A stretch of DNA of 55,893 nucleotides from Ignavibacteriaceae bacterium (GTDB lineage: Bacteria; Bacteroidota; Ignavibacteria; Ignavibacteriales; Ignavibacteriaceae): positions 1-55,893 of the forward strand of contig JARLHC010000167.1 of assembly GCA_031292455.1 (NCBI GenBank), written 5' to 3'. Within the stretch, counting starts at the first letter, position 1, and every line of letters starts with the position of its first letter. The position numbers and the translations under genes are program-made. This document shows positions 8,863 to 54,855 of the stretch, in pieces. The notes below the pieces were generated by a model that had not been told where the DNA came from, made no database searches, and saw nothing but the letters and a program-made list of their open reading frames with translations.

Positions 8863-8864
8863 GT

Positions 8865-36036: not shown

Positions 36037-36840
36037 TTGTTACTCCTATTGTTAATTATTTTATCAAATACTTTAATTTTGATCTGAATTATGCCTTTTC
36101 TTCCAATTTCCTTAACTGATTTCATTTCTCTCTTCATCTCTATTTTACGAGTACCCCTCTATTAATTGTAATTCCACTTTTCCATTTTTTGCCATGAAGC
36201 CTGCTGATGGCGAAAATTATTCCTGATTTTTAGCCATTCCAGAAAATCTGTTGTGCCTTCGGTCACGGGCATTGCCTTGCCGTAAACTTGGAAGAAGGAT
36301 GGCACCATCATGCCGGGCTAAGGAGTCTCATTTACTTCTCTTGCACTTCCCCAAGACAGTTCATACACTGTTTGATATAGGATTTAACGTCTCTTTCCTG
36401 TAAATACTCCCAATCCCTTCGATTTTATCACATAACCTCCGTCACATAAATTTTATAATCAACGATACTCCTCTATTAGTAGTAGCTCCCATTTTTCATT
36501 TATGACCAACTTTTTTGCAATAAATAATCCCTTTTATCAAATTATTTTAAGCACCGCTATGTTCTGATATCAAATAGCGGATAGCATTTGCTTTCACATC
36601 ATGCCCAGCCAGGAGTTTGTTTTTTCGAGTAGCAAAAGGAATTACATATAGAATGAAGAATTAAGATGATGAAGACACTTCGAACTCCCCTGAAAAATCA
36701 CATCCGTCCAAAACAACGAAATATTATAATATTGATTCTAATTTTAATTTATCTTGGACAGAAGTATGAAAAATAAATTTAATGACAAGGTTTTTGCCGA
36801 TGCTGTTACTTTTAAGCGCTGGCTTTATCCCATTGCAATA
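36037..36840. other. Gene-free region left of the tRNA remnant
   Basis: About 800 AT-rich bases without a credible gene. Two diverged copies of a phrase like TACYCCTCTATTARTWGTA occur near 36151 and 36462. Each is followed by a CATTTTT-rich stretch, which hints at decayed repeats. One minus-strand open frame runs over the tRNA remnant and is a shadow. The region probably lay downstream of the original tRNA gene. Confidence 0.4.
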
Positions 36841-36878: not shown

Positions 36879-36924
36879 TGCACCCAACCGGGCTCGAACC
36901 GGTGACCTGCTGATTAAGAGTCAG
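36879..36924 (-). tRNA. 3' half of tRNA-Lys(CTT), truncated at the anticodon loop
   Basis: Minus strand, reading from the anticodon arm: CTGA, loop CTCTTAA with anticodon CTT, TCAGC, variable AGGTC, T arm ACCGG-TTCGAGC-CCGGT, acceptor strand TGGGTGC and discriminator A. CCA is not encoded. Upstream of the anticodon stem the tRNA sequence stops: the expected GC before TGA is replaced by TC, and no D arm or 5' acceptor strand follows. The gene is therefore cut by an insertion at the anticodon loop, and the missing 5' half should lie at the far end of the island. Confidence 0.85.
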
Positions 36925-37036
36925 GACACCTAAAATATTTCTCATTATTGAGAGCCGTAACCCCTTATATTATAATAAATTACAGCAATTAAATTTTTGG
37001 TGTTATTCGGGAAGTAGAAATGGAAGTAGTTTTATA
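36914..37036. repeat. att-like direct repeat, left copy
   Basis: Begins with TTAAGAGTCAGGA of the tRNA anticodon arm and continues with AAAATATTTCTCATTATTGA, GAGAGCCGTAACCCCTTAT and, after a diverged stretch, GTAGAAATGGAAGTAGTTTTATA. The same order recurs at 43364-43487. The tRNA-derived start marks it as an attachment site made by site-specific integration. Confidence 0.85.
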
Positions 37037-37124
37037 ATTATATTAATTAATAAATTGCCCACATTCGGGGGATATCTCCTCAACCTAGCCAAGTTTATTC
37101 TCAGTCATATTCATACACTAATTA

Positions 37125-37172
37125 TTGACAGCATTCTTCATTTGCTGTCAATCTATAGTTTTGCTATATTTG
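37125..37172 (+). promoter_or_regulatory. Promoter and operator of the AbiE-like operon
   Basis: TTTG (37141-37144), 20 bp, then TATATTTG (37165-37172) is a full match to the Bacteroidota promoter. The inverted repeat TTGACAGC (37125-37132) and GCTGTCAA (37144-37151) covers the -33 box. AbiEi antitoxins are known to repress their operons by binding inverted repeats, so autoregulation is likely. Confidence 0.75.
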
Positions 37173-37182
37173 AAATAAAATA

Positions 37183-37932
37183 TTGAAGACTATCGCAACT
37201 GACAAATTAAATATCGAAAAATTAAAAGAATGTTTTGCTAATCAACCAATCTTTGAAACAAAAGATCTGATTGAGTTTTACCGAAAATTAGAACCAGACA
37301 TAAAAGCTACCAGCATAAATTGGAGAGTTTACCGCTTAGTTAATATTGGGACTATCAGTAGAATTGGAAAAGGAAAGTTTACAATAAAGAAGGTGAAATT
37401 TTATTTACCCGAAATTTCTTCAAGGATTAAAAATATCCATGCAAAATTGAAGAAAAAATTTCCTCATCTGAGAGTCTGCCTTTGGAATACATCTTCATTT
37501 AATGAATTCATGATTCATCAGCCTGGTAGGTTTTATTTGCTTATCGAAGCAGAAGCAAATGCTGCTGAATCAGTCTTCTTCTTTTTAAAAGAAGCGAATT
37601 ACCCGGTATTTCTGGACCCAACCTCGGATATAATCAATAAATATTTACCTCCAGACAAGGAAACACTTATTATAAAATCCCTTGTATCAGGAGCACCCAC
37701 ACAAAATATACAGAGGATTCTGACAACCACTATTGAAAAAATGCTAGTAGATATATTTTGTGATGATGTAATATTTTCTGCACAACAAGGCTCAGAAATG
37801 CGAATAATTTTTACAGAAGCATTCAGTAAGTATTCAATAAATAAAAACAGAATGCTTCGTTATGCTGATAGGAGAAGGAAAAAGGAAAGTTTCAACAATT
37901 ATTTAACGACTATTCCAAATTATATTTTATGA
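37183..37932 (+). CDS. DUF6577/AbiEi-like antitoxin and regulator
   Basis: 249 aa. The N-terminal 65 residues form a winged-helix module (LIEFYRKLEPDIKATSINWRVYRLVNIGTISRIGKGKFTI), as in AbiEi antitoxins. The middle (RVCLWNTSSFNEFMIHQPGRFYLLIEAE) matches what I recall of DUF6577, a family regularly found beside AbiEii nucleotidyltransferases. Start is TTG, only 11 bases after the -7 box, so the message would be almost leaderless; no later start is suitable. The stop overlaps the next start (ATGA). It is likely the antitoxin and repressor of a type IV toxin-antitoxin and abortive-infection pair. Confidence 0.75.
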   Translation: MKTIATDKLNIEKLKECFANQPIFETKDLIEFYRKLEPDIKATSINWRVYRLVNIGTISRIGKGKFTIKKVKFYLPEISSRIKNIHAKLKKKFPHLRVCLWNTSSFNEFMIHQPGRFYLLIEAEANAAESVFFFLKEANYPVFLDPTSDIINKYLPPDKETLIIKSLVSGAPTQNIQRILTTTIEKMLVDIFCDDVIFSAQQGSEMRIIFTEAFSKYSINKNRMLRYADRRRKKESFNNYLTTIPNYIL

Positions 37933-39002
37933 TAGACCAAACATTGATAACAAAAGATTGGCTAACCAAGGTTGCTAAAGAAAACCGTAACGCCGATAAA
38001 ATATTAGTAGAAAAAGTTATCCGTGCTCTGTTATTACTGGAAGGACTAGTTAAGCAAAAAATAAAATTTGTTTTCAAGGGTGGGACAGCTTTGATGCTTC
38101 TTCTGAATTCTACTAAAAGATTGTCGATTGACATAGATATTATTTTGCCGGAATCTCCTGGTAATTTAGAGGATATATTAGATGCTGCAGCAAAAGAACA
38201 AGGATTTTCAAGAAAAGTGTTGCAGCATAGAATCACCCAGACTGATATAAAGAAAGAGCATTACAAATATTTTTATACTCCAATCCACAAATCGAAAGGA
38301 GAGGAAGACAGTGTACTGCTTGATATTTTATTTGAAGAGGTAAAATATAGTAATGTTATTCATATTCCGATACAATCTTCATTTATACCGTTGGATACAA
38401 AACCACTATTAGTTGATGTTCCATGCTTTGAAGATATTCTTGGGGATAAATTAACTGCTTTTTCACCGAACACAACCGGTATTCCATACTTCAAAAAAGA
38501 AGATAGTATGAGTATGGAAATCATAAAACAACTCTATGATATTGGCAATTTGTTTGATGTAATTTCTAATACAGAAATTCTTAAATCAACCTTTTATAAG
38601 TTTGCAGCACAAGAACTGGTTTATAGGAATCAAGTTAATACCAAAGAGGGTGATGTATTAGAAGATATTTTTCAGACATCACTGTGTATTGTAACAAGAG
38701 GGTCAGATGGCAAAGGCGATTTTAATAAATTACTGGAAGGAATTCAAAGAGTATCAAGATTTATATTTTCCGAAAGTTATCATTTAGATAAAGCTATAAC
38801 TAGTGCCTCAAAAGCAGCTTATTTATCGGTGTTAATAAAATTTGATTCGAAATCAATTGAAAAATTTAAAGATCCTATGCAAGTGAAAGATTGGTCAATT
38901 TCTCCACCGATGAACACAAAACTTAACCGGTTAAAAAAATCAAATCCCGAAGCCTTTTTCTATTGGTACAAAATATTCAAACTATCAAATTTGAGAGAAT
39001 AA
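37929..39002 (+). CDS. AbiEii-type nucleotidyltransferase toxin
   Basis: 357 aa. The nucleotidyltransferase core shows FKGGTALMLLL (GGT at 51-53) and RLSIDIDI (S66, D68, D70), the catalytic signature of AbiEii/MenT-like toxins, which transfer nucleotides to tRNA and stop translation. The C-terminal helical region contains LVDVPCFEDILGDKLTAFSPNTTGIP, the conserved family block (DKL.A). The ATG overlaps the TGA of the DUF6577 gene, the standard layout for AbiEi-AbiEii. It is followed on the same strand, 58 bp on, by the primase-helicase gene. Confidence 0.88.
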   Translation: MIDQTLITKDWLTKVAKENRNADKILVEKVIRALLLLEGLVKQKIKFVFKGGTALMLLLNSTKRLSIDIDIILPESPGNLEDILDAAAKEQGFSRKVLQHRITQTDIKKEHYKYFYTPIHKSKGEEDSVLLDILFEEVKYSNVIHIPIQSSFIPLDTKPLLVDVPCFEDILGDKLTAFSPNTTGIPYFKKEDSMSMEIIKQLYDIGNLFDVISNTEILKSTFYKFAAQELVYRNQVNTKEGDVLEDIFQTSLCIVTRGSDGKGDFNKLLEGIQRVSRFIFSESYHLDKAITSASKAAYLSVLIKFDSKSIEKFKDPMQVKDWSISPPMNTKLNRLKKSNPEAFFYWYKIFKLSNLRE

Positions 39003-39060
39003 TCTTTCTCCTTACAATAACAAATAATAGTCATAATATGTAGTAACCTGAAAAAATCAA

Positions 39061-41505
39061 TTGGAAGAGTTAGATCAAAATATCATTAAAGCCGAAGAAG
39101 AACTTAAGTCGCTTAATGAAAAGCGAAAGGAATTAGTAGATAGAATATCTTCATTAAAACAGAAAAAAGATTTATACGCTAAAGAACCGGATGTTAAATT
39201 TCTGTTGAATAATGAAAATAGTATAAATAATCACTCATCTGAAAAAGTTAAAATTGATTTATTTCGATCATTGTTTAAGGGACGAGTTGATGTTTTTCCT
39301 AAAAGATTTGAAAACACAAAGACTGGAAAATCAGGGTATTCCCCTGCATGTGATAATGAATGGATTCATGGCATCTGCGAAAAACCTAAAATTAAATGCA
39401 GTGACTGTCAACGACAAAACTTCATTCCTGTAACAGACAAGATTATTCGTAATCATCTTACCGGTTTCAAAGATAATTCCCGGTCGAATTCATATTATGT
39501 TATTGGTTTATACCCTTTGCTTCAGAATGATACTTGCTGTTTCCTGGCAGTTGATTTTGATAAATTAGGATGGAAACAAGATGTCTCCGCTTTCTTTGAA
39601 GTTTGTCATGAATTAAATATCCCAGCATCACTTGAAAGATCTCGCTCTGGAAATGGCGGACACATTTGGATATTTTTCTCTGAACCTGTTCCTGCTTCTA
39701 CAGCTAGAAAATTAGGTTCTTTTATCATCACACAAACAATGGCAAAAAGGCCGGAAATTAATTTTGATTCATACGACAGATTTTTCCCAAGCCAGGATTA
39801 TATGCCGAAAGGTGGTTTCGGTAATTTGATTGCTTTGCCTCTTCAAAAAAAAGCACGAGAAAATGGCAATAGTGTTTTTATTGATGATCAATTTGTTCCT
39901 TATAAGGACCAATGGAATTATTTAGGGAATGTTAGACTGCTTTCTAAATTGGAAGCTGAAGAGCTTGTTCGAAGTGCAGCTATAAGTGGAATGATTCTGG
40001 GGATTAAGTCTGTAACTAATGAAGAATGTGAAGAACCATGGAACATAATACCTGGAAAAAAGAGCACCTTATCGTTTAAAACTGGAGAACTACATGACCA
40101 TCTAAAAATAGTTCTGGGAAATCAAATATATATTGAGAAAGAAGGCTTACCACCCTCTTTAATAAATGCACTTATAAGGCTGGCTGCCTTTCAGAATCCC
40201 GAATTCTATAAAGCTCAGGCAATGAGACTACCGACTTTTAATAAACCAAGGATTATTAGCTGTCATGATGATTATCCAAAACATATTGGTTTGCCAAGAG
40301 GTTGTTTGGAGGATGTAAATAATCTATTAAAATCCCTATCAGTTAAAACTGATATTATTGATTATAGATATTCAGGCAAAAATATTGAAGTAAATTTTTT
40401 CGGGGAATTAAAAGAAGATCAAAAGTTGGCAGTAAATACCTTAATTAAGAATGATATCGGAATTCTTGCTGCTACTACTGCATTTGGTAAAACAGTTGCG
40501 GCTATTTATATAATCGCGAAACGAAAAGTTAATACACTTATACTTGTACACCGGCAACAATTAGTTGACCAGTGGGTTTATAAGCTAAGTACTTTTTTAC
40601 AAATAGATCCGAAGGAAATTGGAATAATAGGGGGAGGTAAAAGACGAATAACGGGAAAAATAGATGTGGCAATAATTCAATCGTTAAGCAGGAAGCATGA
40701 GGTTGATGAAATTATTTCCGAATACGGTCAGATAATTGTTGATGAATGTCATCATGTTTCAGCCTATAGTTTTGAACTGGCAGTCAAACAATCCAAAGCT
40801 AAATACTTCTTGGGTCTCTCCGCTACTGTAAACAGGAAAGATGGTCACCACCCGATAGTACTTATGAGTTTGGGCCCAGTAAGATATAGTGTGAATGCAA
40901 AGAAATTTGCGGATGAAAGTTTGATTCATCACAGGGTAATTATTAGAAAGACTGATGTTCATTTTAATGATTTAGAGCAAGATAATTCATATTCCGTTAT
41001 TCACAAGCTTTATTCAGTGATTATTTCAGATAAAGAAAGAAATAGTCTCATTGTGGAAGATGTAATCTCCTCAATAAGCGGTAAAAGATTTCCATTGGTT
41101 TTAACAGAGAGACGAGAGCATATGAAACAATTATATGATCTCATTCTACCAGTTGTAAAAAATGTATTTTTGCTGGAAGCAGGTATAGGGAAGAAAAGAA
41201 GATCGGTGGTAGAAGAAAAGATGAAAAATATTCCACCTAATGAACCCAGAGTAATAATATCAACAGGAAAATATATAGGAGAAGGATTTGATGATCCCAG
41301 GCTTGATACACTGTTCCTTACAATGCCGATTTCCTGGAAAGGAACGATTGCACAATATGCAGGCCGCCTGCACAGAGCACACCATTTGAAAAACGAAGTA
41401 ATTGTTTATGATTATGTCGATAGCAACTCGCGAATGTTTCTCAAAATGTTTTCAAAAAGAATTAAAGGCTATAGAGCAATAGGATATGAGGTAGAGGATA
41501 TTTAG
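39061..41505 (+). CDS. TOTE-type primase-superfamily II helicase fusion
   Basis: 814 aa. A short coiled coil (about 1-40) precedes an archaeo-eukaryotic primase-like domain of the kind named for TOTE conflict systems (about 65-320): a zinc-binding cysteine cluster (CGxC, CSDC), the catalytic VDFDK near 163-167, and SGNGGHIWIFF near 196-206. A superfamily II helicase follows from about 440: Walker A AFGKT (about 473), DECHH (about 561), GLSAT, and motif VI QYAGRLHRAH (about 765). The start is TTG with a poor ribosome site. It probably acts on foreign DNA or RNA in defence. It shares strand and likely transcript with the AbiE-like pair. Confidence 0.82.
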   Translation: MEELDQNIIKAEEELKSLNEKRKELVDRISSLKQKKDLYAKEPDVKFLLNNENSINNHSSEKVKIDLFRSLFKGRVDVFPKRFENTKTGKSGYSPACDNEWIHGICEKPKIKCSDCQRQNFIPVTDKIIRNHLTGFKDNSRSNSYYVIGLYPLLQNDTCCFLAVDFDKLGWKQDVSAFFEVCHELNIPASLERSRSGNGGHIWIFFSEPVPASTARKLGSFIITQTMAKRPEINFDSYDRFFPSQDYMPKGGFGNLIALPLQKKARENGNSVFIDDQFVPYKDQWNYLGNVRLLSKLEAEELVRSAAISGMILGIKSVTNEECEEPWNIIPGKKSTLSFKTGELHDHLKIVLGNQIYIEKEGLPPSLINALIRLAAFQNPEFYKAQAMRLPTFNKPRIISCHDDYPKHIGLPRGCLEDVNNLLKSLSVKTDIIDYRYSGKNIEVNFFGELKEDQKLAVNTLIKNDIGILAATTAFGKTVAAIYIIAKRKVNTLILVHRQQLVDQWVYKLSTFLQIDPKEIGIIGGGKRRITGKIDVAIIQSLSRKHEVDEIISEYGQIIVDECHHVSAYSFELAVKQSKAKYFLGLSATVNRKDGHHPIVLMSLGPVRYSVNAKKFADESLIHHRVIIRKTDVHFNDLEQDNSYSVIHKLYSVIISDKERNSLIVEDVISSISGKRFPLVLTERREHMKQLYDLILPVVKNVFLLEAGIGKKRRSVVEEKMKNIPPNEPRVIISTGKYIGEGFDDPRLDTLFLTMPISWKGTIAQYAGRLHRAHHLKNEVIVYDYVDSNSRMFLKMFSKRIKGYRAIGYEVEDI

Positions 41506-41555: not shown

Positions 41556-42824
41556 TCATTTTTTTTGAAATGCTTTTTCCATTCTTGATTGTTCTGCTTT
41601 AGGAATATCGTATTTTCCGGCTATAGTTTTCCAATCACTTACTTTATTTCCAATATCATTTATTATTTTTTCAGCCTCATCTTTTTTTAATCTAAAATCT
41701 TCTGCAACCTCAAGTGAAAGATCCAGGCTTAACGAATTATCATTCTCTGAAATATTTAAACTTAGTCCAGTGCCCATTTCATTTGGATTAACATCAAATG
41801 CAGGAGAAAGTATCCATCCTAATTCTGTTAAAATAAAACCATGGTTTCTTAGATGATCATCCGTATTTGAAACACTGATATTGAATACTATTCGTTTCCA
41901 TAATTCTTTCAAATCATTATTTACATTCGCTCCATTTTTGGTGATGAATTTTGCTAACTCAAGATAACTTGCCCCGGCGTGAGATTCTCTATCGTCCGTA
42001 TAACCAAGCATATTCATTGCCGATGCAAAATGGATTCGTTCATCTTGAATCCTGTCAAATCTTTTGACCATAAATGTATGATACCGATTTGAAAACTTTT
42101 CTATTTTAGCTTCAGCAACATTTAATCCGCAGTTTACCGCAAGATTATAAACTACCATTTCCCATCCACCAATATCCTTGGTGTCATTTATGCTGGGAAA
42201 TTTTGCAATCCACAAATTACCCTTAGAATCATGTATGCTTGCTTTTGGCCGTGCGCCACCCAGAGATGATCCGGGGGCAAGCAATATATTTAACCATTTA
42301 AGATGTTCTGAGTCAGATACATCTTCATCCTTCTCAAACTTCAGACTTGCCTCCTGTAACTCACTAACTGATGTGAACGGTGGTGCTGCAAGTTTTTCAT
42401 CCTGATTTAAGAATGGTCCATCTGCATCTTCTTTAAATCTTAAACCGCCAATTCTATTTTTATCATATACTCCTAACAAATAGTCTGATTCTAATAATGT
42501 TTTTGCGGATCTGTTTTCTTTTCGTAATAAAATTGCTTCCCGTCTTTGCATAATGACTCTCCCCCATCTGTCTGGAGAAGAATCAAGAAAAATTCCGAAA
42601 TTATTTTTACTACTTTTTAAATATTGTGTGCCTGTATAAAGTTGCAGATCCGGATCAATAACTTGCAAAAATCTTGACTCCAGCCACCCTTCTGAATACT
42701 CAAATGAAAATATTTCTTTACCTCGTACTACCTCCGAGTAAAGAGTTCCTAATAAAGCGGGATCTTTTAATCCTCTCCAGGAAGCATAAACGAGGATTTC
42801 TCTTCTAGTGTTTGCTTTAGCCAT
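41556..42824 (-). CDS. hipA: HipA-family Ser/Thr kinase toxin
   Basis: 422 aa. Motifs of HipA kinases are visible in order: the Gly-rich SSLGGARPKASI near 190-200, the catalytic Lys strand FMVKRFDR near 252, SNTDDHLRNHG (catalytic loop D and N, near 315) and the metal-binding AFDVNP near 341. HipA of E. coli phosphorylates glutamyl-tRNA synthetase and triggers dormancy. The N-terminal subdomain (LLGTLYSEVVRGKEIFSFEYSEGWL) is complete, so it is a full-length toxin. It overlaps hipB by 8 bp and converges on the primase-helicase gene. Confidence 0.9.
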   Translation of the reverse strand: MAKANTRREILVYASWRGLKDPALLGTLYSEVVRGKEIFSFEYSEGWLESRFLQVIDPDLQLYTGTQYLKSSKNNFGIFLDSSPDRWGRVIMQRREAILLRKENRSAKTLLESDYLLGVYDKNRIGGLRFKEDADGPFLNQDEKLAAPPFTSVSELQEASLKFEKDEDVSDSEHLKWLNILLAPGSSLGGARPKASIHDSKGNLWIAKFPSINDTKDIGGWEMVVYNLAVNCGLNVAEAKIEKFSNRYHTFMVKRFDRIQDERIHFASAMNMLGYTDDRESHAGASYLELAKFITKNGANVNNDLKELWKRIVFNISVSNTDDHLRNHGFILTELGWILSPAFDVNPNEMGTGLSLNISENDNSLSLDLSLEVAEDFRLKKDEAEKIINDIGNKVSDWKTIAGKYDIPKAEQSRMEKAFQKK

Positions 42825-43125
42825 TTCTAATCTCCGGTTTTCTTTTTGGTGCTCTCTTTTTTACAACTAATTTTGCATCCTGAAGCTTACGTCCTAGCTC
42901 ATCATCTTTTGCAATATTTAATAAATCATCCTCTAACCTAAGCACGGATAGAACCTGGGCATAATTGCCAATACCTACATTTGGCTTGCCTCTTTCTATT
43001 TCATATAATGTAGTTCGACCAATTCCTGCTCGTTCGGCAACTTGCTTGGTGCTAAGTTTTCTTCTTAATCGAGCGAGCTTGATATTTTCTCCAAGCTCTC
43101 TTAAAATTTTATTGTATTGTAACAT
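42817..43125 (-). CDS. hipB: HipB-like XRE antitoxin
   Basis: 102 aa. Residues about 16-60 form an XRE helix-turn-helix (LARLRRKLSTKQVAERAGIGRTTLYEIERGKP). The basic tail KKRAPKRKPEIRNG may contact DNA or HipA. The ATG at 43125 has AAAGGAAG upstream; the longer open frame reaches through the promoter and operator and is not real. HipB dimers repress their promoter and neutralise HipA. An inverted repeat brackets the -7 box in front of the gene. Confidence 0.88.
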   Translation of the reverse strand: MLQYNKILRELGENIKLARLRRKLSTKQVAERAGIGRTTLYEIERGKPNVGIGNYAQVLSVLRLEDDLLNIAKDDELGRKLQDAKLVVKKRAPKRKPEIRNG

Positions 43126-43146
43126 GTTGCTTCCTTTAATTATAAC

Positions 43147-43194
43147 GTTCGCTATACCATACAAATATAACACTATTTGTTCATTATAGCGAAC
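43147..43194 (-). promoter_or_regulatory. hipBA promoter bracketed by operator arms
   Basis: GTTCGCTATA (43147-43156) and TATAGCGAAC (43185-43194) are a perfect 10-bp inverted repeat, 28 bases apart. On the minus strand the -7 box TATATTTG lies between them at 43169-43162, and the right arm sits at the -33 position. Bound HipB would cover both promoter elements. Confidence 0.7.
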
Positions 43195-43363
43195 ATTATT
43201 ATAGAATTTTTATCTATTAAGTGCGGATTATTCAACCAAAATGACCTACTGATAAATCGTCAAGACCACATTATGGAATAATCTCATGAAATAATTTCCA
43301 AAATCCTTCGATTATTAACGATTTTTGAGCTTTTTCTCTATCTAATTTAATTTGACCTGTGTG

Positions 43364-43487
43364 TTAAGAGTCAGGATACCCAAAATATTTCTCATTATTG
43401 AGAGCCGTAACCCCTTATTTAACAATAAATTACAGCCCCAAAGTTTTTAGAGTAAATCGGGAAAGTAGAAATGGAAGTAGTTTTATA
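43364..43487. repeat. att-like direct repeat, right copy
   Basis: Repeats 36914-37036: TTAAGAGTCAGGA, AAAATATTTCTCATTATTGA, GAGAGCCGTAACCCCTTAT and GTAGAAATGGAAGTAGTTTTATA in the same order. It is preceded by TGACCTG, also found before the left copy as part of the tRNA variable and T arm, so traces of the tRNA persist here too. It marks the junction of two adjacent inserted segments. Confidence 0.85.
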
Positions 43488-43628
43488 TTCTTTTTATCAT
43501 TTTATTTGGTTTAGAAAATTGCGACTTCAGTAGAAGAGTAATAAATCATAAGGAATATTGTTTATTAAAAAATTTATTTTTCTTGGATTGACTTTTGAAT
43601 ACTGACAACACCATAAGACCACAATTAT

Positions 43629-46235: not shown

Positions 46236-47340
46236 TCATTCATCAAAATATTTTTCTTTTAATTCTTCACATATTCCATCCAAACCCGGGAACATAGCCC
46301 CAGCTGTAATGCCCATATACGCTAGTTCATTCATTACGTAATTCCTTTCACTCGTTGGAATATCGAAGGCAAAAAGATAATTATTATTAGTTTCAATCTC
46401 TTTGCTTTGTATATATTCTTCGATGTCATCAACATTTGTAATAGTAGTAATAGATTGCTGAGGTATCATCCTTTTATTTTCAATCGGCAAAAATTCTATA
46501 AAGGACAAATGTGGAAATGGCCTCTCCAATGTTAATACCTGATTATAATCCGTTCTCCATTTTTTTTGATCAAAAACAAATATTCTCACACACTCATTAT
46601 TATTTATTTTTTTTGGGATGTTTCTAAAAGCGAAAAAAGCTGCAATAAAGGGTGAATAAGTCCAATCTAATAAAGGTGTTGGAAAACCATGATGTTGTAA
46701 TAAATTGTAGAAAGCTCCTAAATCATTTGGGTCATTAAAATCGAATAAATGTGGAGTAACTGAACTTATATATTGATGTATCCTTGGTAAATCTGCCAAG
46801 ATAAGTTTAGTTAAATCATATCTCCCTTTCCTGTGAAAAGAAGTTCTTAGTTTATGTGGTATTATTCTGTCCCCTATAAATCATATTACTATTTAAGTAT
46901 TCACTCATCTTTTTTTTGTATGCTTCCCATGAAATTTTTTCACTATGAATTCTTGAATCCTTTCTTGCATGGTCTTTTTTTATGTTTATTTCAACCTTAG
47001 TATCAATATCTGTTTTAATATTAAAAGACACTTCATCTTCCTTAAAGTACCCATTGATAATTGCATTTTTAGGAATAAGAATGTCTGGATATATATTTTT
47101 GATTTTATCAAAATCAATTATTAAAGAAGTAATAGGATCCAAGGTATAAATATTATTTACTCGAAATTCAAATTCAGGGTTTTTATTATTAGTTTGGAAG
47201 TATGCAGCTAAAGCAGGCAGTTCTTTCTTATAAGATACTAAATAGGCGACACCTCTAAAATAATTATCAAATTCATCAATATTTATTAACGTTTTCCCAG
47301 AATCAGTACCATTATATTTCCCAATCCATTGTCCTTTCAT
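46236..47340 (-). pseudogene. FRG-domain protein gene, split by a frameshift
   Basis: Two minus-strand frames make one protein. The first (47340-46852) starts MKGQWIGKYNGT and ends MIYRGQNNTT-stop, where YRGQ is the opening motif of the FRG domain. Shifting frame at about 46851-46858 continues KLRTSFHRKGRYDL and then the second frame, with FGAFYNLLQHHGFPTPLLDWTYSP-like FRG core (HHGFPTPLLDWT) and FAFRN. Two bases seem lost after the NTT codons. FRG-domain proteins are frequent in defence islands, with unknown chemistry. The gene is broken unless the site is recoded or mis-sequenced. Confidence 0.75.
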
Positions 47341-47352
47341 AATGCAACTCAA

Positions 47353-47537
47353 ATATTTATTAAATTAAAAATTATTTAATATAAATTATATAAAAGATAT
47401 TTTAATTATTATAATTTAATTTAGTTCTATAAATTATATAATGGGTTTTTAACGAATTTGTCATCTTTTATCTTTTACCCTTTTCTTCCAGACTTATGGT
47501 TGATGAATAATTTTAATAAATACTTACTTGAGGGCAA
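47353..47537. other. Divergent intergenic region
   Basis: Very AT-rich 185 bp between the divergent FRG-domain and DUF2971 genes. It must hold both promoters; no clear operator is seen. Confidence 0.35.
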
Positions 47538-48443
47538 ATGTTGACTCTTTATAAATACAGAAATTTAAGTACACGTACAGAGGATATCTTTAAGGATAGA
47601 AAGATTTGGCTAGCCCAACCAGCTACGCTTAATGACCCCTTTGAATGCAAATTTGAGGATTTTGAGGCCTCACAACTGCAAGCCAAAGCTCGTGAAACGA
47701 TGGGAATTCAACTGAGTGGATTTGTAATGACCGCTCATATGGCCCATGAAAACAGTGAGGATTTTTTTGGGATAAAGGGGAAAGACATTAAACATCTTTT
47801 ACGCCGAATAAAAAGCGCTAACTCCTTATCCAAAAAGTACCGTATCGCTAATGAGTTTTTTTCTGAACGCGGAGCTATGGGGTTTAGCGATCCCAATGGT
47901 CATGCAAAGTCACTGCAGAATCAAATGAGTGAAGTTGGTGTTTTTAGTCTTTCAGAAGATCCTACCAATATGTTGATGTGGTCACACTATAGTGACAACC
48001 ATAAAGGTCTTGCTATTGGCTTTCTACAAACTCCTGATTCAAAGTTGAGTGACGATAAATTTTGTAGGCCTATAATATACTCTGACGAACCAAATAAATT
48101 TGATTTTAATAAGGGCCATATTGCTGGATTGGTTTATTCTAAAGATGAGGAGGGTTCTGTAAAATCGATGAGTTACATTTCGATTGATGACGTACAAGTA
48201 CAAAAAGCATTATTTACAAAAACTACAGTTTGGGCATATGAAAAAGAATGGCGCTACTTAATGCCGAAGTTTGGCCCCTATGATTTCCCAGCACAAATAT
48301 CGGAGCTGGTTTTTGGATTAAAGTGTTCTGATGATGATTGCATGAAATATATTGACTTGTGTAAAGAGATTGGCGGGGATATCATTTTCAAGAAAGCAGT
48401 TAAGACAAAAGACTCGACATCATTATCATTACAAATACTTTAG
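47538..48443 (+). CDS. DUF2971 domain protein
   Basis: 301 aa, cytoplasmic. The family start LYKYRN ... LWLAQPATLNDPFECKF-like segment (here IWLAQPATLNDPFE) and the central FSLSEDPTNMLMWSHYSDNHKGLAIGF block are the DUF2971 hallmarks. The core is thought to resemble an ART- or RES-like fold, but no activity is established. GAGGG lies just before the ATG. The next gene on the strand begins 37 bp later, which suggests a two-gene unit. DUF2971 genes are common in accessory and defence regions. Confidence 0.8.
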   Translation: MLTLYKYRNLSTRTEDIFKDRKIWLAQPATLNDPFECKFEDFEASQLQAKARETMGIQLSGFVMTAHMAHENSEDFFGIKGKDIKHLLRRIKSANSLSKKYRIANEFFSERGAMGFSDPNGHAKSLQNQMSEVGVFSLSEDPTNMLMWSHYSDNHKGLAIGFLQTPDSKLSDDKFCRPIIYSDEPNKFDFNKGHIAGLVYSKDEEGSVKSMSYISIDDVQVQKALFTKTTVWAYEKEWRYLMPKFGPYDFPAQISELVFGLKCSDDDCMKYIDLCKEIGGDIIFKKAVKTKDSTSLSLQIL

Positions 48444-48480
48444 AATTAACATTGAAAATTTTAAGCCATTTTATTATGAT

Positions 48481-49134
48481 ATGAATTTACAATCTTATTC
48501 TAATCAAATCTCAGCCCTTGAACCAATGAATCAGCTGCAAGAATATAATGTTACCAATTGGAGTAACTATAATTACAATAGTGATGAAATATGTCATGAA
48601 ATTCAAGAAATTTTGAGTGAATATCCCATTGGGATTACCCGACAAAATATTATTGTGCATTATCAAAGTTATCCGCATAATATTTTGAAGGGTTTTTTAA
48701 TGTCTATGATCTGGGGCCATGGGTATGATAATAGAGGACCTTGGAAAGTTTCTAAAATGTTAACAGACTTTCCTGCTGCTATAGAAATACTAAATAATGC
48801 AGCAAATGCAGTAGTCGATCAAGATTTAATTAGGGCCCACAAATCTTTTCGGAATATGCAAAAAATTCGAGTTAATTATTTTTCAAAATATTTATACTTC
48901 TTGGGGAGAGGTCGAAATATAAATAGATATCCTTTGATTTTTGACAATAGGGTTGCAAGTAGTATCTGTAGATTACATGATACCAATTCTGATTGGTTTA
49001 ATTTATTTAATATTCAGTCAAATACTGATGCTGAGTCTTATTTGAGTTACAATAATCTCCTTCATCAGCAATCAGATGAACTAAATATAGAAGCAGAGAA
49101 AATCGAATATTTCCTCTACCTAGGGATATTTTGA
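48481..49134 (+). CDS. OGG-fold (8-oxoguanine glycosylase-like) protein
   Basis: 217 aa from ATG 48481; the longer open frame overlaps the DUF2971 gene and is rejected. The sequence MSMIWGHGYDNRGPWKVSKML, then FFSKYLYFLGRGRN and PLIFDNRVASSICRL, resembles the uncharacterised bacterial family described as having an OGG fold (helix-hairpin-helix DNA glycosylase relatives). A clear catalytic Lys of OGG1 cannot be assigned by eye. It might recognise a modified base or damaged end. No good ribosome site is present, so translation may depend on the upstream gene. Confidence 0.5.
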   Translation: MNLQSYSNQISALEPMNQLQEYNVTNWSNYNYNSDEICHEIQEILSEYPIGITRQNIIVHYQSYPHNILKGFLMSMIWGHGYDNRGPWKVSKMLTDFPAAIEILNNAANAVVDQDLIRAHKSFRNMQKIRVNYFSKYLYFLGRGRNINRYPLIFDNRVASSICRLHDTNSDWFNLFNIQSNTDAESYLSYNNLLHQQSDELNIEAEKIEYFLYLGIF

Positions 49135-49183
49135 ATTTATATGTGTAAGTAGGTGCTTCTTGTGCAACACCGACCCCCACTGT

Positions 49184-49345
49184 TTACCTGTTTGTATTAT
49201 TTCTAATTTTTGAAGCAACCTCATTCATACTTACATGGTTATTTCTTGTCATAGTAAGTTCCATGAACCGCTTTAATTCCTGCGGAGTAATTGTTTTGCT
49301 GAAGTACTTGCCGCGTAATTTTAAGAACTGTCCTTCATTTGGCAT
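49184..49345 (-). CDS. 53-aa small protein, paralogue of the 72-aa gene
   Basis: ATG at 49345 with an excellent AAAGGAGGA ribosome site; stop at 49184. The sequence LRGKYFSKTITPQELKRFMELTM followed by NEVASKIRN matches LHGKYFNGTISPEELKEFINTSM and KEFANRFRN of the 72-aa gene at 49887, so the two are paralogues. It is last in a minus-strand series of four small genes, 115 bp after the 148-aa gene. The KYF-GTxSPEEL pattern recalls the short N-terminal helix motif of FecR-type anti-sigma proteins, but nothing more is present. Confidence 0.65.
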   Translation of the reverse strand: MPNEGQFLKLRGKYFSKTITPQELKRFMELTMTRNNHVSMNEVASKIRNNTNR

Positions 49346-49459
49346 TGTTGATCCTCCTTTTATAAAAATATTATGTGCTTAAAATGTTCACGTGGCACCT
49401 GGCCACTATAATGTAGGTCGTGCAGAATAAATGGTCTTGCACGACCCCCTGAACGACAA

Positions 49460-49906
49460 TTAAGCCGCACTCTTCCTAATAGCCATTGCAATCTCATTTA
49501 CCTCATCAGTAATCGGCAATTCCTTGCTTATTGCTGGCCATACGTTCGGACCATCTACCTCATATTTAATACCTAATGCAATTGCACCAGCTATAATGAC
49601 TCCATTTGAAATGTACATGCCGACAAAACGTTCTAGCTTATGTTTTAAGTGGTAGCTATTATTCCTATGGTTTATCGCCTTTGATCTTATACACTGGCTC
49701 AGAAATGCACAGGCTAACTGGAACTCATTTAATGCGGATTTCAGATCGACACGGCATTTAGCATACAATGGATGATTTAAGGACTGGATGCCTGCATAAG
49801 TTATATTTTTGTTTTGTAATAGAACCATATCCAGGTCTTGTTGTGTATACTGTTGAGATAATCTCAGTAAATTTTCTTGTTGCTGTTTAATTTGTGAAGG
49901 CGTCAT
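49460..49906 (-). CDS. 148-aa small-operon protein with SYxLKH/SNG/GPN motifs
   Basis: The ATG at 49906 has GGAG six bases upstream, so the longer frame is not used; it overlaps the end of the 72-aa gene by 20 bp. The N-terminus is Gln-rich and helical. The C-terminus contains NNSYHLKHKLERFVGMYISNG, trimmed here, then AGAIALGIKYEVDGPNVWPAIS. The order SYxLKH..E, Y(I/V)SNG, AIxLG and GPN resembles a small unknown protein found on proteobacterial plasmids and integrative elements. No function is known to me. Confidence 0.55.
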   Translation of the reverse strand: MTPSQIKQQQENLLRLSQQYTQQDLDMVLLQNKNITYAGIQSLNHPLYAKCRVDLKSALNEFQLACAFLSQCIRSKAINHRNNSYHLKHKLERFVGMYISNGVIIAGAIALGIKYEVDGPNVWPAISKELPITDEVNEIAMAIRKSAA

Positions 49907-50105
49907 ATAGGTCTCCATTGATAATTTGGTGGTCATCTGTTCCCACCGGTTTTGTAGTTTTATAATTTCTAAATCTGTTGGCAAACTCCTTAAGACTTAC
50001 ATTGCCTCGTTGGGCCATGCTGGTATTTATAAATTCTTTTAACTCTTCAGGCGATATTGTGCCATTGAAATACTTGCCATGCAATTTATTTACTCGGTTT
50101 TCCAT
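49887..50105 (-). CDS. 72-aa small protein, paralogue of the 53-aa gene
   Basis: Second gene of the small operon, 9 bp after the 99-aa gene. AGGAC lies nine bases before the ATG. Its first 50 residues are homologous to the 53-aa protein; the last 20 (TTKPVGTDDHQIINGDLYDAFTN) are extra. Both have a short basic N-terminus, a G-T-(I)-(S/T)-P-x-E-L helix start and a K(E/I)xRN tail. Probably a small helical DNA- or protein-binding factor; function unknown. Confidence 0.6.
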   Translation of the reverse strand: MENRVNKLHGKYFNGTISPEELKEFINTSMAQRGNVSLKEFANRFRNYKTTKPVGTDDHQIINGDLYDAFTN

Positions 50106-50114
50106 TTTTATGTC

Positions 50115-50414
50115 CTATTGGAATTGTAAGTGTCTGTAGTATTCGGGTTGAATTCTTTTATTCAGGACCCCTTTATATATGGGTAAATTTGTATCAGTTA
50201 TTATTCTTACCCAATTAAATTTATTTGATATATGTCGAATGGTGTAGGGCGAAACATAGAAGTTCATTTCATGTGATAAGTAATCAGACATTTTATACAT
50301 GCCATTAAATTTTACCCACATTTTGTAAAGCTCTTTTTCACCGTACTTCTTTATGAGTATCTGTGTAACCGATTTTTTATTCGGCTTTCTGTTTTTAGGA
50401 TAATTATGCTTCAA
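50115..50414 (-). CDS. 99-aa putative HTH protein heading the small operon
   Basis: TTG start at 50414 with AGGAGGAG four bases upstream, a strong site. The protein is basic at the N-terminus (KNRKPNKKS) and has the helix-turn-helix-like stretch ELYKMWVKFNGMYKMSDYLSHEM ... SPYTIRHISNKFNWVR, here split, like short regulators that read a site with a recognition helix near 58-65. It heads the four-gene series 50414 to 49184, each gene with its own ribosome site. Possibly the regulator of a small mobile or phage-derived module. Confidence 0.5.
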   Translation of the reverse strand: MKHNYPKNRKPNKKSVTQILIKKYGEKELYKMWVKFNGMYKMSDYLSHEMNFYVSPYTIRHISNKFNWVRIITDTNLPIYKGVLNKRIQPEYYRHLQFQ

Positions 50415-50822
50415 GGTTCTCCTCCTGTTTCAAGATCCCAGGGCAGTTCTGACATTAAGGATCGGTATTATCGGCGAGGGACCGGATTGTTTTGTATGTA
50501 TAGTATAGACCTTTAATTACATATGATGCAAATTTATTTTATTGGATTGAAAGGATCAATGCATCATTAGCATATCTGAAGGAAGTCACTTAGTAAATAA
50601 TGAGCCGGTTAGCCTCTGTTAAACGGTTTTTTATTATAGAATGATTGAGTTTTATAGAAATATAAATTAACTTTATTTGAGCTTATGATAATGTTTGATA
50701 AGGGCGAGCGGGTTAAGATTCCGATTCTATTTCTTCTAATAATTAATTAAAAAGTACTTACTCTTAATTAAGAGGGGGGACTTAAGACTCAATGTTATTA
50801 ATCAACTTTAATGGAGCTTGAT
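50415..50822. other. Intergenic region with promoter-like and hairpin sequences
   Basis: About 400 bp between the divergent small operon and the lipoprotein gene. A weak hairpin with CCG/CGG arms and a T6 tract lies near 50604-50632. GTATAGTATAGAC near 50501 is partly palindromic and could be a control site of the small operon. No gene is seen. Confidence 0.3.
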
Positions 50823-51563
50823 ATGAGGAATGTTATTCTTTCTGTTTTATTCACTTTTATGTTTGTTTTATTATCAAATGGTTGCAAAAAAAATGATGCA
50901 ACAGCACCTGACCCGCCAGCAACTGGAAATTTAATAGGTTCAGTGGAATTAAGAAACGAAAATGGTGATCCTGCTTCTAGCTATAATGCTGTCACAGTAT
51001 CAGTTGAAGGAACTAATTTAAGTAGTCAAACGGATTCGAGTGGAAATTATTCGATCACTGGAATTGAACAGGGTGTAAGAATTATATCATTTTCAAAAAA
51101 TGGTTATGGAACATATAAATCTCGTATTAATATTGATGGAACTCCTTACCAATATATAAACTTAGAACTTTATAAGTTACCTTCTTTCAATGTAAACCAA
51201 TTATCAGCAAAAATAATAACCAATGGAATTGAATTAACTGGCGAACCTACAAATAGTGTACATTATCCAAGGGGAGTAGTAGTTTTTGCATTTACTGATA
51301 GCACTGTCTGCTCTGACCCGAGTAAATATCTTTACGCAAATAATTCTATGATATATCCCGACTCAATTAATTTTACAACTTCAGCGACGGTTTATGAATT
51401 GCTACAAAAAGGATTCAAATCTGGTCAAACAATTTATTTTGTAGCTTATGCTACTATTTCATATAACTACTATACTAATTATTTTGATTGGACATATAAT
51501 AAAACTGTTTATACTTGTATTAGTAATACACCATCAAATAAAGTTAGCGTCAAGCTTCCTTAA
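50823..51563 (+). CDS. Lipoprotein with carboxypeptidase-regulatory-like domain
   Basis: 246 aa from the ATG at 50823, chosen because GGAG lies six bases upstream. Lipobox LLSNGC gives Cys21 after a hydrophobic signal. Residues about 35-110 form a CarboxypepD_reg/SpaA-like beta-sandwich (GNLIGSVELRNENGDPASSYNAVTVSVEG, trimmed; then SGNYSITGIEQGV). A second beta domain follows. Such lipoproteins sit at the outer membrane in this phylum. It has its own terminator. Confidence 0.65.
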   Translation: MRNVILSVLFTFMFVLLSNGCKKNDATAPDPPATGNLIGSVELRNENGDPASSYNAVTVSVEGTNLSSQTDSSGNYSITGIEQGVRIISFSKNGYGTYKSRINIDGTPYQYINLELYKLPSFNVNQLSAKIITNGIELTGEPTNSVHYPRGVVVFAFTDSTVCSDPSKYLYANNSMIYPDSINFTTSATVYELLQKGFKSGQTIYFVAYATISYNYYTNYFDWTYNKTVYTCISNTPSNKVSVKLP

Positions 51564-51625
51564 TTAACCTTGAGTTATTTGAACGGAGGATTTCGAGGAA
51601 TGGTTTAATACGAAAGGATAAATGC

Positions 51626-51656
51626 TAACCGCTCTATAAAAAGGGCGGTTTTTTTA
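51626..51656 (+). terminator. Terminator after the lipoprotein gene
   Basis: AACCGCTC pairs with GGGCGGTT (one mismatch-tolerant position) around TATAAAAA, followed by seven Ts. It lies about 65 bp after the stop codon. Confidence 0.75.
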
Positions 51657-51750
51657 CATCCCCAAATAGCAAATGCTGAGAATTTAAAAACCTATGCCAA
51701 CAGAATTCGCCTTTACGTTTAAGTTATCGTTAAATTCATAAATCAAACAA

Positions 51751-52474
51751 CTATTTTACCTGAGTTAAATCGTTATTACTAAATTCCCATGTTTCGGCTG
51801 GAAGATTCCAATTTTTAGGAATATCGATAATTATTTTTTCTCCTTTTTTGGAAATTTTAGGTTGTTGTTCCCCCACCACCAAATTGACCAGTTATAAAAA
51901 TCTTTTTATCTTTATTTATTGAGATGATTCTTTCATAACCGCCCGGGCAACATTCGGCATTGTCGTCTTCATTAATAATTAGAATATCATTTCCTCCTAT
52001 TTTAAAATTATTTAATAAATATAATCTACTGACATTATTCTGGTAAATTAATTTATTATCCAGAAAAAGTGCCTTACTGACCACATAACCTTCGGCTATT
52101 TTCAAAATCCCATTTTTCAATTTTGTTTTGGAAGTAACTTCACCAATTACAAATTCTGATGAATCACGGAGAGCAAATGTTGATGAACCACCTTTATCTA
52201 TATAAAGATTTCCAAAAAACACTACTTTTTTATCTCGAGACTCTTCTAACTCTTTTTTATAATAATTTTCATCGCATAATAATGTCCATACAAGTTCGGA
52301 TTTTTCTGCAATAATCCACCATTGAGATCTATGGTAAATTAGCTGGCCATTAATCAATGTATCTTTAGCGACAAGCTGATCCTCGGTTTGTGCCCAAGAT
52401 AAGTTTTGCGCAGGGCAGAAAAACCACAATATGAAAAGCACTGAAATAGTTATGAATTGACATTTTTCTGCCAT
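51751..52474 (-). pseudogene. Secreted protein gene with a frameshift at a G5 run
   Basis: From ATG 52474 (GAGG five bases upstream), a signal peptide ends SWAQ-T (about 29), followed by a beta-rich region (VFFGNLYIDKGG, LKIAEGYVVSKALFLDNKLIYQ). The frame stops at 51857 just after a GGTGGTGGGGG run (51870-51874 on the complementary strand). Reading with one G fewer continues EQQPKISKKGEKIIIDIPKNW to a TAG at 51751, which looks like genuine coding sequence. This is either a disrupted gene, a slippage switch or a sequencing error. No family is recognised. Confidence 0.6.
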
Positions 52475-52694
52475 ATTGCCTCTATAAGAATTATTTAAAA
52501 TAAAGTTATGAAACGCGAACTGCAAAAGGAGAATTCATCGAGGCATATATGTGGCTCATCTACGACTAATCATTATAATCTCAAAATAATTTACTTGATA
52601 TTTCTTTTAATTTCAATCATTTGTTCCTTATTTTCAATTTTACACACTGAAGAATTTAATTGCCGGATAATAGTTGAATGAGGATAATTAATTT

Positions 52695-53687
52695 ATGACA
52701 ACAAAACCAGAACCGAAGTGTCACGAATTTTGTGTAGATGACACACCGTATTGTGTTTATGATAGCGGAATCCGAGACATTAATGAAGAATATCTAAACT
52801 CCATCAATCCCAAATTTTATGAGTTTATTGCCCAGCAGAACAGCAATATTCTTAAGAATAACAATGCTGAAAAGGAAAGTAAACAATTTGCGGCAATATT
52901 ATTAAGAAACTATTATTCTCAAGCCCTTGAGACCTTATTTGCACTAATATTTGCAACACTTCAGTCCCCGAATAGTGTTTTAGTATGGATGTTAAGATAT
53001 AGTAATTATGATTTATATAATCTCGTTAAAAAAGTTAACGAAAATCAATCTATAAAAATAAGATTTATTATAAATGAAAAATTTAGTTGGGAATCTGTAA
53101 TTAGGATTATTTTTGATGGTACGCCAGGTAGTGAAACAAAGGAGGAAGTAATTAAAAATTTTACTGGACTTCTAAGTTCTTTTGCTAACGACTACTTAGA
53201 TCAAAACATTAGGAGCGAGTACAATAGTGTAAAGCATGGCTTCAGAGTCAGACCGGGTGGTTTTAGTGCAACTATGAAATCTCCCGAAACTGGAAAGGAC
53301 ATTCCACTATCACAAAGCGAATTTGGTTCGATGTTCTACACAGAAGAAAATATTAAAGGGGAAAAAAATCAATATACTTTAAGGTCTCATGCATTAAACT
53401 GGAATCCAGAAAATAATTTTTATGGAATACACTTTGTCAGTTTATTAATAAACAATCTTCTATTATATCTTAAAAGACTTAATAACATAAAAACTGATGG
53501 GCTTATATATAAAACAGTTTCTAAAGAACAAGTAAATTTGCCGTGGGGGAAGATGTCCGGTTCTGCATCTTTTTCGATTGGATTTTCAATGAAAGTTGAA
53601 TTAATTGATCCGATTAATAAAGACGAAATATTATCTATGTATCATGACACAAATACGAAAGATTTACAAACTGACATTCATAAATAA
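52695..53687 (+). CDS. HEPN-like protein of unknown function
   Basis: 330 aa, no signal peptide. A helical core contains FAAILLRNYYSQALETLFALIFATLQ near 66-92 and EYNSVKHGFRVRPGG near 175-190. The N-S-V-K-H-G element resembles the N/R-x-x-K-H-G motif of several HEPN-like families. GAGG lies upstream of the ATG at moderate distance. It converges on the DUF5677 gene, which has a similar motif. A defence or stress RNase is possible; there is no direct proof. Confidence 0.5.
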   Translation: MTTKPEPKCHEFCVDDTPYCVYDSGIRDINEEYLNSINPKFYEFIAQQNSNILKNNNAEKESKQFAAILLRNYYSQALETLFALIFATLQSPNSVLVWMLRYSNYDLYNLVKKVNENQSIKIRFIINEKFSWESVIRIIFDGTPGSETKEEVIKNFTGLLSSFANDYLDQNIRSEYNSVKHGFRVRPGGFSATMKSPETGKDIPLSQSEFGSMFYTEENIKGEKNQYTLRSHALNWNPENNFYGIHFVSLLINNLLLYLKRLNNIKTDGLIYKTVSKEQVNLPWGKMSGSASFSIGFSMKVELIDPINKDEILSMYHDTNTKDLQTDIHK

Positions 53688-53758
53688 TAATTTAGGATTA
53701 ACATGGATTTTACTGAAAACTAAAAAACAAGCAAAATCATTTTAAGAAATCCTTAAAT

Positions 53759-54622
53759 TTATTGTTTCTTTAGCATTTCCAAATCAGCATAATCCAATAA
53801 TAAATTTTTACATTTTTCAATATCAAATTCAAGATTCAACTCTTCATTGAGTATTATCATTAGAGCTACAATCGACATTGAGAGAAGAACGAAAATTAAC
53901 TTCATTGATCCTGTCTCATTTTTAGTAAGAAAATTTCTTAACTCCTCTGCAGTTTTAAATGAATTATGTGGCCTTTCCACTAATCCGGTTACAACTAAAA
54001 ACCCGTAATAACTCCCATGGATCACCTCTGAACTATCCCTATAAATATCAAAAAAAGCAAAAGTTAGTATATCGCCTACATAATTTCCATATTTTTTATC
54101 GATTACTTCTATTTTCTCTTTTATTGTTTCTTTTGTCCATTGATTAATTTCCTTTCCGTGGTTGTTAGTGTACTCGTTAAGTGCATTTTTCATAATATCT
54201 ACTTCACCAAGTTTTTTTAGAAAGGATTCATCTCCATGAATTAGACTCATTAACTTAGAATTAATTTTTAATTCCCGTTTTTTATCTCTGAACCTTCTTT
54301 GAATACTATATGTTATATTCTTTTTAAGTGATTTTTCCTTTGTAGCGCATATAAACCCAATATTAATAACTGTTTCGATAAAATGTCTTGATAGGACAAG
54401 GCAATCTTTTGTACAATTATTTTTATATAGGATTGAAATACTTCTAAGTGTATGGTTTACAAAGATAATTAGCGGCATGACTATTATGAGTAAGGGATCT
54501 TTTTTATTAATGGATTTTTGTAATTTTTTAAAATTATTTTGATGTTTTTTGAAAAAACTATAATCGGATTTTAGTACTTCAAAAATAGAGTCCAATTTCA
54601 TATCATCAGTATTTTCAACCAT
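53759..54622 (-). CDS. DUF5677 (HEPN-like) protein
   Basis: 287 aa from ATG 54622, which has GGAGG six bases upstream; the longer frame is rejected. The family elements are LVLSRHFIETVINIGFI near 74-90 and FFDIYRDSSEVIHGSYYGF near 200, where R-x6-H gives a HEPN-like RNase signature. A hydrophobic segment (LIFVLLSMSIVALMIIL) near 242 may anchor it or pack in the fold. DUF5677 genes are common in accessory islands. Function unproven. Confidence 0.65.
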   Translation of the reverse strand: MVENTDDMKLDSIFEVLKSDYSFFKKHQNNFKKLQKSINKKDPLLIIVMPLIIFVNHTLRSISILYKNNCTKDCLVLSRHFIETVINIGFICATKEKSLKKNITYSIQRRFRDKKRELKINSKLMSLIHGDESFLKKLGEVDIMKNALNEYTNNHGKEINQWTKETIKEKIEVIDKKYGNYVGDILTFAFFDIYRDSSEVIHGSYYGFLVVTGLVERPHNSFKTAEELRNFLTKNETGSMKLIFVLLSMSIVALMIILNEELNLEFDIEKCKNLLLDYADLEMLKKQ

Positions 54623-54855
54623 TATTTGCCTCCGTAAATCTTTATATAACAATAATTGATTGGCTTATTTTCAAATTAAAAATAACTAAATCGTCAGAAA
54701 AAACAATAAACTAAACCCAACAGAAGTATTTTAGTCTATGTTTTTGTAATCACCTAACGACTTTTAAGTTTACAATTCTAACCTGCCTCAATACTTTTAA
54801 CTCATAATATTTCATTCCATTTGACTTGGGTGACTGTGACTGCATGCCCAACTAA

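Follow-up and report, generated by a model that had tools for sequence, protein, structure and literature searches.

We analysed a stretch of 55,893 nucleotides, referred to here as the window, from an Ignavibacteriaceae genome of 3.36 Mb in 171 contigs (assembly GCA_031292455.1; the window is contig JARLHC010000167.1, our C79). Our subject is a group of three genes, encoding an AbiEi-type antitoxin, an AbiEii toxin and a TOTE-type primase-helicase, and the small island in which they lie. A preliminary description of the window had placed these genes on one strand and proposed that they form a three-part system. The Pfam and PADLOC models bear out the gene assignments and the shared strand:

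37183-37932, forward strand: AbiEi-type antitoxin (DUF6577), TTG start (Pfam PF20217, E 1.9e-70; PADLOC AbiEi, E 1.2e-83)
37929-39002, forward strand: AbiEii nucleotidyltransferase toxin (Pfam PF08843, E 1.6e-20; PADLOC AbiEii, E 4e-133)
39061-41505, forward strand: AEP-TOTE primase fused to an XPB-like superfamily 2 helicase, TTG start (AEP-TOTE PF22548, E 3.2e-100; ResIII/DEAD helicase)

The AbiEi and AbiEii genes overlap by 4 bp and the coordinates confirm the gap of 58 bp reported earlier between AbiEii and the helicase. The primase-helicase has 814 residues, in which AEP, Cys4, AFGKT, DECHH, SAT and motif VI were all found, whereas no C-terminal nuclease domain was matched in it. A structure model (pTM 0.56), which served for the domain folds only, shows the folds of XPB-like helicases and of CRISPR-associated Prim-Pol (CAPP). 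For AbiEii we compared the motifs with the definitions in the accessible sections of PMC3985639, which are hG[G/S]-x15-DhD for motifs I-II, KLxA-aromatic for motif III and (K/R)DxxD for motif IV. The window protein fits with GG-x15-DID and DKLTAF, but its motif IV reads KQLYD, as it does in 13 of the 16 orthologues listed, and is a subfamily variant. Because this motif departs from (K/R)DxxD we label the pair AbiE-like, pending a demonstration of toxicity. A sequence comparison of AbiEii with the PDB gave no match at E 0.1.

The recurrence of the arrangement was studied in 143 helicase loci from genome contigs, plasmids, viral contigs and genomes of the window's own phylum, which form 125 clusters at 90% identity (left out of the 143 were loci scoring below 200 for the helicase, places that were already represented, and L024/L025, the two contigs of the genome G044). 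AbiEii was counted in open reading frames (ORFs) of at least 200 residues, and among the toxin families the excess over background was computed for AbiEii alone. The window was excluded from the enrichment tests, for which 18 AbiEii were left once it and the duplicates had been dropped. With the window included, AbiEii is present in 16 of the 125 clusters; it is adjacent to and co-directional with the helicase in 12/125, with AbiEi alongside in 11. Counting the adjacency in other genomes, as the preliminary description had proposed, we found AbiEii on the same strand and at most 300 bp upstream of the helicase in eight clusters besides the window (L045, L062, L065, L073, L099, L249, L267 and an Arcobacter cluster) compared to 0.38 expected. 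Random placement over 100,000 rounds reached at most five upstream AbiEii. A gene-slot control expects 1.14 rather than the observed eight (P 2.7e-5), and 16/18 AbiEii are co-directional with the helicase (P 0.0013). The spacings between AbiEii and helicase are often operon-like, with -4, 6, 11, 30, 35 and 67 bp. For L049, L240, L261 and L272 the AbiE pair lies downstream of the helicase instead.

Outside the window the AbiEi partner was confirmed in 10/10 cases, nine by PADLOC models and L062 by Pfam AbiEi_2. There are eight best-matching PADLOC AbiEi models, the window's among them, and the pairs belong to different subfamilies. On a FastTree tree of the helicase with 123 rows we counted 11 changes of the AbiE label for 12 bearers (L211 is one very long branch). 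Among the four Arcobacter plasmids read, whose helicases are ~90-93% identical, the pair lies upstream in L211, L273 and L274 and downstream in L272. Locus L249 carries one AbiE pair upstream and another, different pair downstream, with 150-bp repeats 2.3 kb apart. The AbiEii-like and TOTE helicase genes of L062 overlap by 4 bp, and the gene upstream of this AbiEii-like gene (8020-9114) fuses AbiEi_2 with a weak Mrr-type nuclease domain.

Within the window's order AbiE and the helicase are mostly found apart. Among 164 genomes, many of them fragmented assemblies, AbiEi occurs in 32, AEP-TOTE in 18 and both in seven, and only the window's own genome has the two on one contig. We fetched 20 AbiEi loci from the 38 matches outside the window and observed AbiEii in 19/20 and the helicase in 0/20. 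The nearest helicase in the set, from G076 (82% over 576 columns), is preceded immediately by different genes in divergent orientation. An AbiEii-family ORF is located 3.1 kb upstream of it, and the contig ends before its downstream side. For G044 (63-71%) no AbiE was seen on its two helicase contigs, and the helicase protein ends in a PLD domain. The AbiE-helicase pairing is not vertically conserved in this order.

Another characteristic of the helicase loci is their flanking repeats. With a minimum of 18 nt, exact flanking repeats were detected at 21/143 loci compared to 1/566 shuffled pairs, although some of the repeats on plasmids may be repeated genes and not attachment (att) sites. At nine loci, a tally that also takes two shorter repeats (17 nt in L035 and 16 nt in L267), the repeat overlaps or adjoins a tRNA gene:

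window: tRNA-Lys
L073: tRNA-Met
L261: tRNA-Arg
L267: tRNA-Pro
L047: tRNA-Ser
L076: tRNA-Leu
L050: tRNA-Val
L035: tRNA-Leu
L264: tRNA-Asn (6 bp outside)

These nine cases measure ~3.8-7.4 kb. L035 and L047 contain hardly anything beyond the helicase. The AbiE pair is present in both L267 and L073: in L267 it is accompanied by an integrase and by a helicase that a frame break splits, in L073 by the helicase and two integrase-like ORFs, the L073 pieces being judged by eye. Given their tRNA-linked repeats, the AbiE-helicase loci of the window, L073, L261 and L267 are tRNA islands.

The borders of the window island, and the second toxin-antitoxin (TA) pair inside it, were absent from the preliminary description:

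36880-36932, reverse strand: tRNA-Lys(CTT)-like 3' part, from the anticodon stem to the 3' end, 84% identical over 45 bp to the tRNA-Lys of the same genome (contig C11)
36903-37045: left direct repeat (att-like), beginning in the tRNA anticodon arm, from a repeat search
43353-43496: right direct repeat (att-like), 6450 bp from the left copy, to which it is 84-86% identical
41556-42824, reverse strand: HipA-type kinase toxin, convergent with the helicase (PF07804, E 7.4e-51)
42817-43173, reverse strand: HipB-type HTH antitoxin, from the Pfam scan
43139-43202: inverted repeat at the hipB start, a possible HipB operator (29-nt arms, 79% complementary)

Both copies of the ~140-bp repeat begin at the tRNA-Lys anticodon arm and the left copy runs on into the tRNA 3' half. 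Exact matches between the flanks reach 37 nt, compared to at most 14 nt in 200 simulated pairs. The repeats enclose five genes in an island of 6.45 kb, and the Pfam scan found neither integrase nor relaxase among these five. ARAGORN finds no intact tRNA in the window and Rfam gives nothing there at gathering score. Matches to the repeat longer than ~43 bp occur only in its own genome among the 164 genomes of the order, and a 30-bp piece of it has no exact match in the viral contigs. In the same-genus genome G001 the tRNA-Lys 3' half is alike over 94 bp (91%), the likeness stops at the same anticodon point and different DNA follows. The tRNA-Lys anticodon point is a used insertion point. We rejected G001 as an empty site because the same tRNA-Lys 3' half is cut there too, and ARAGORN detected no tRNA in the 19.5 kb taken from it. 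The cut tRNA-Lys of G001 is adjoined by a gene (L295, 6956-9475) whose 839-residue product has a weak cold-shock domain at its N-terminus. To the left of the window island two 43-nt direct repeats (36152-36194 and 36466-36508) are 74% identical. The FRG, DUF2971, OGG-like glycosylase and DUF5677 genes to its right (46236-54652) may belong to a wider defence region. The Pfam scan of the window proteins of 35.3-45.5 kb also identified a T9SS-type secreted protein encoded near the three genes.

AbiE is not the only toxin family beside these helicases. HipA lies at most ~4.2 kb from the helicase in 9/125 clusters, window included, and we also observed HigBA (L210, L033), RelE/ParE (L279, and three ParE at position -1), zeta toxin (L264, L268), MNT (L026, L076) and Fic (L201). 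Several of these fall within the repeat-bounded stretches, namely zeta (L264, L268), HigB (L033), MNT (L076) and Fic (L201). The helicase itself varies as well: among three relatives scanned, L024 and L197 have a fused C-terminal PLDc_2 domain and L093 a DUF559 domain, both of nuclease type. On alphaproteobacterial plasmids the helicase is directly followed by three tyrosine recombinase genes in a row (L017, L018, L022) or adjoined by TniB/TniQ genes (L020, L021), and some helicase-bearing plasmids have typed replicons of their own. Among 5426 complete E. coli genomes 868 match the helicase gene of an E. coli plasmid, 681 of them over at least 80% of it, and 892/898 match places are chromosomal. 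On the two E. coli chromosomes read, the helicase is part of an element that also has integrase, YfjI and Gp2-type genes, and on one of the two it is found next to the tyrT-derived rtT RNA. The helicase gene of L297, also from E. coli, is annotated as broken and lies next to an IS3 transposase. In phages 1103 records match, none of them over 80% of the query, and the 20 matches listed start at about residue 299, which corresponds to the helicase part. The viral contigs contain eight relatives of the helicase.

The region upstream of AbiEi contains the following feature:

37117-37159: inverted repeat, probable AbiEi operator (17-nt arms at 37117-37133 and 37143-37159, 82% complementary)

This repeat, seen earlier, is real and has a perfect 10-bp core (ATTGACAGCA/TGCTGTCAAT); randomising the 143-bp region also yields a perfect core of that length, in 22 and 24 cases out of 5000. 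On a second score, for which only 12 shuffles were made, the repeat reaches 10.0 compared to a shuffle mean of 5.6 and a maximum of 10.5, and is thus below the best shuffle. For the AbiEi homologues of the order the upstream inverted repeat exceeds the best of 12 shuffles in 5/17 cases, with differing sequences. The single consensus promoter of the preliminary description is not supported: the TTGACA at 37125-37130 sits within the repeat and the scan lists no -10 hexamer 16-18 nt away. Promoter-like matches in the upstream region number 32 compared to 29.4 in shuffles, which is chance level, and the promoter prediction was dropped. A -7 motif of the Bacteroidota type, TAnnTTTG, can be read at 37165-37172. 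As for the statement that the gap before the helicase contains no promoter, a site with 10 of 12 promoter-like positions (38991-39018) spans the junction of AbiEii and the gap, yet such a site is at chance level. The inverted repeat is probably better read as a candidate AbiEi operator than as a promoter.

The component parts of the island are already known. According to the accessible sections of PMC3985639, AbiE can stabilise plasmids and confer phage resistance, and AbiEi autoregulates. The type IV TA system described there resembles the window pair in its bicistronic, overlapping AbiEi and AbiEii nucleotidyltransferase genes, its upstream inverted repeat and its location on mobile DNA. The window pair differs in belonging to the DUF6577 subfamily (PDLC02235/PDLC02299), in its motif IV and in the primase-helicase 58 bp downstream. 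TOTE stands for TPR, OB, TBP, Effector conflict systems (accessible sections of PMC12458937, citing Aravind, Iyer et al. 2022), with which the window protein shares the AEP-TOTE primase domain (PF22548) and the superfamily 2 helicase. TA modules stand beside the helicase in place of TPR/OB/TBP: no TPR, OB/cold-shock or TBP match was found in the seven proteins of 35.3-45.5 kb and the ten of 46.2-55.6 kb. As adjacent TPR-OB/CSD and TBP genes are unmatched, we speak of a TOTE-type effector gene and not of a TOTE system. CAPP has a similar AEP fold (7nqd, TM-score 0.81 by target, from the structure model), but in the window this domain is fused to the XPB-like helicase. The closest counterpart of the island as a whole comes from integrative and mobilizable elements (IMEs) and cis-mobilizable elements (CIMEs). 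A CIME is defined in the accessible sections of PMC5704250 by attL and attR at a tRNA gene and by lacking genes for its own integration or transfer, and both features are found in the window island, which also carries TA modules. Unlike those elements, the nine tRNA cases are small and centred on one primase-helicase gene, and the window island has no relaxase. The preliminary description did not know the combination as a described system, and the open-access literature that we searched likewise gave no account of the AbiE-TOTE helicase pairing, which is weak evidence as subscription papers were outside its scope.

Building on the observed gene identities, island borders, recurrence and varying toxin partners, we lean towards reading the locus as a recurrent, modular mobile cassette of toxin and primase-helicase rather than as a fixed three-gene system. 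The window island is probably a cis-mobilizable remnant or an element mobilised in trans, because the att-like ends are present and an integrase is absent.

Several observations weigh against this reading. About 90% of the helicase clusters have no adjacent AbiEii. With the window's AbiEi and AbiEii as phmmer queries we found none at 80 helicase loci, and a profile built from the AbiE of the order detected AbiEii at 2/80, so that an operon conserved by strict homology was rejected. The recurrence appears only once other AbiE subfamilies are admitted. Helicase-adjacent proteins served as seeds of the AbiEii profile, which may favour such cases. Two of the eight upstream cases are poorer examples: L065 is an AbiEii fragment without AbiEi and in L099 AbiEii is 291 bp from the helicase. 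With Pfam alone AbiEii is, together with ResIII, the joint commonest family at position -1, with 4/89 at -1 (the ORF of L195 being swapped for its -2 gene), 1/87 at +1 (89 minus the broken-helicase halves of L195 and L201), 2/142 at -2/-3 (four of 146 rows dropped) and at most 1/135 at +2/+3 (one of 136 dropped; an upper bound of one from the first 25 families listed). The resulting position effect is borderline (4/89 at -1 compared to at most 4/364 elsewhere, P 0.05). L099, where a short ORF separates AbiEii from the helicase, is presumed to be one of the two -2/-3 matches; counting its AbiEii as -1 lowers P to 0.009. Closeness of neighbours is also unavoidable in small cassettes, and many of the loci lie at contig ends in metagenome assemblies. 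Since the helicase is divided over several ORFs in L261, L267 and L201, selection on it is not constant. Finally, an empty site was not found in G001, the genome looked at, and the window island lacks an integrase.

These points have to be set against the alternatives. The view of the preliminary description, a dedicated three-gene defence system in which failure of the helicase, or its detection of invading DNA, releases or activates AbiEii, would account for the operon-like spacings across several phyla, the strong co-direction and the Arcobacter plasmids, which keep the pair near the helicase despite the changed side. We nevertheless consider it quite improbable, as unrelated toxins occupy comparable places, the best AbiEi models differ among the loci, the nearest relative G076 has other upstream genes and AbiE is usual in the order without the helicase. 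Of the earlier claim the close, co-directional AbiE-helicase arrangement stands, as it recurs beyond expectation, whereas the fixed trio is not supported. Random neighbours in relatives had been named as the observation that would contradict a three-part system; the neighbours do vary, which is part of that observation, yet AbiE occurs there more often than expected. Chance crowding in a defence island, with AbiE, helicase and HipBA as unrelated arrivals at one tRNA hot spot, agrees with the separate and convergent HipBA, with the FRG, DUF2971, OGG-like and DUF5677 genes right of the island and with the different DNA that the same tRNA-Lys point borders in G001. However, AbiEii is distributed very unevenly around the helicase in both position and strand, and we regard this explanation as very improbable.

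A third possibility is a selfish integrative element that the primase-helicase serves as replication or maintenance engine, with AbiE and HipBA as addiction modules and defence secondary. The att-like repeats at tRNA genes, the integrase of L267 and integrase-like ORFs of L073, the plasmid sites beside tyrosine recombinase trios and TniB/TniQ genes and the two E. coli elements all suit such an engine, and IMEs have replication and TA modules for maintenance according to the accessible sections of PMC5704250. We still think it unlikely, given that the nuclease-type fusions in three relatives better suit a DNA-destroying effector, that the helicase also occurs on plasmids with typed replicons of their own and that the five island genes include no relaxase.

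For the modular mobile cassette that we prefer, we infer the following course. The TOTE-type primase-helicase would be the core of the island and would be accompanied by two exchangeable TA modules, AbiE upstream and co-directional and HipBA convergent. AbiEi would repress its own operon at the inverted repeat and neutralise AbiEii. If the cassette were lost or antitoxin expression failed, for example during phage takeover, AbiEii would arrest growth, and this arrest, stabilising or abortive, would stabilise the island and back up the helicase. The primase-helicase may be a DNA-directed effector, as PLD-type and DUF559 domains are fused to it in three relatives; it would move on invading or damaged DNA with ATP, synthesising there, and the relatives with fused nuclease domains would add cutting. 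The island may still be mobile at present.

It is plausible, if still tentative, that the window represents a broad family of compact (~4-7 kb) tRNA-targeting cassettes around a TOTE-type primase-helicase. AbiE, HipBA, HigBA, zeta, MNT and Fic would be interchangeable guards that were plugged in repeatedly, so that loss or sabotage of the cassette arrests the cell, and the window would be doubly guarded. AEP-TOTE helicases are common, yet the literature searched showed no experiment on them. The repeated, independent coupling to toxins on tRNA islands may provide a handle on their function, and it raises the further question of whether toxin modules guard other weapons as well, which could be tested in E. 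coli.

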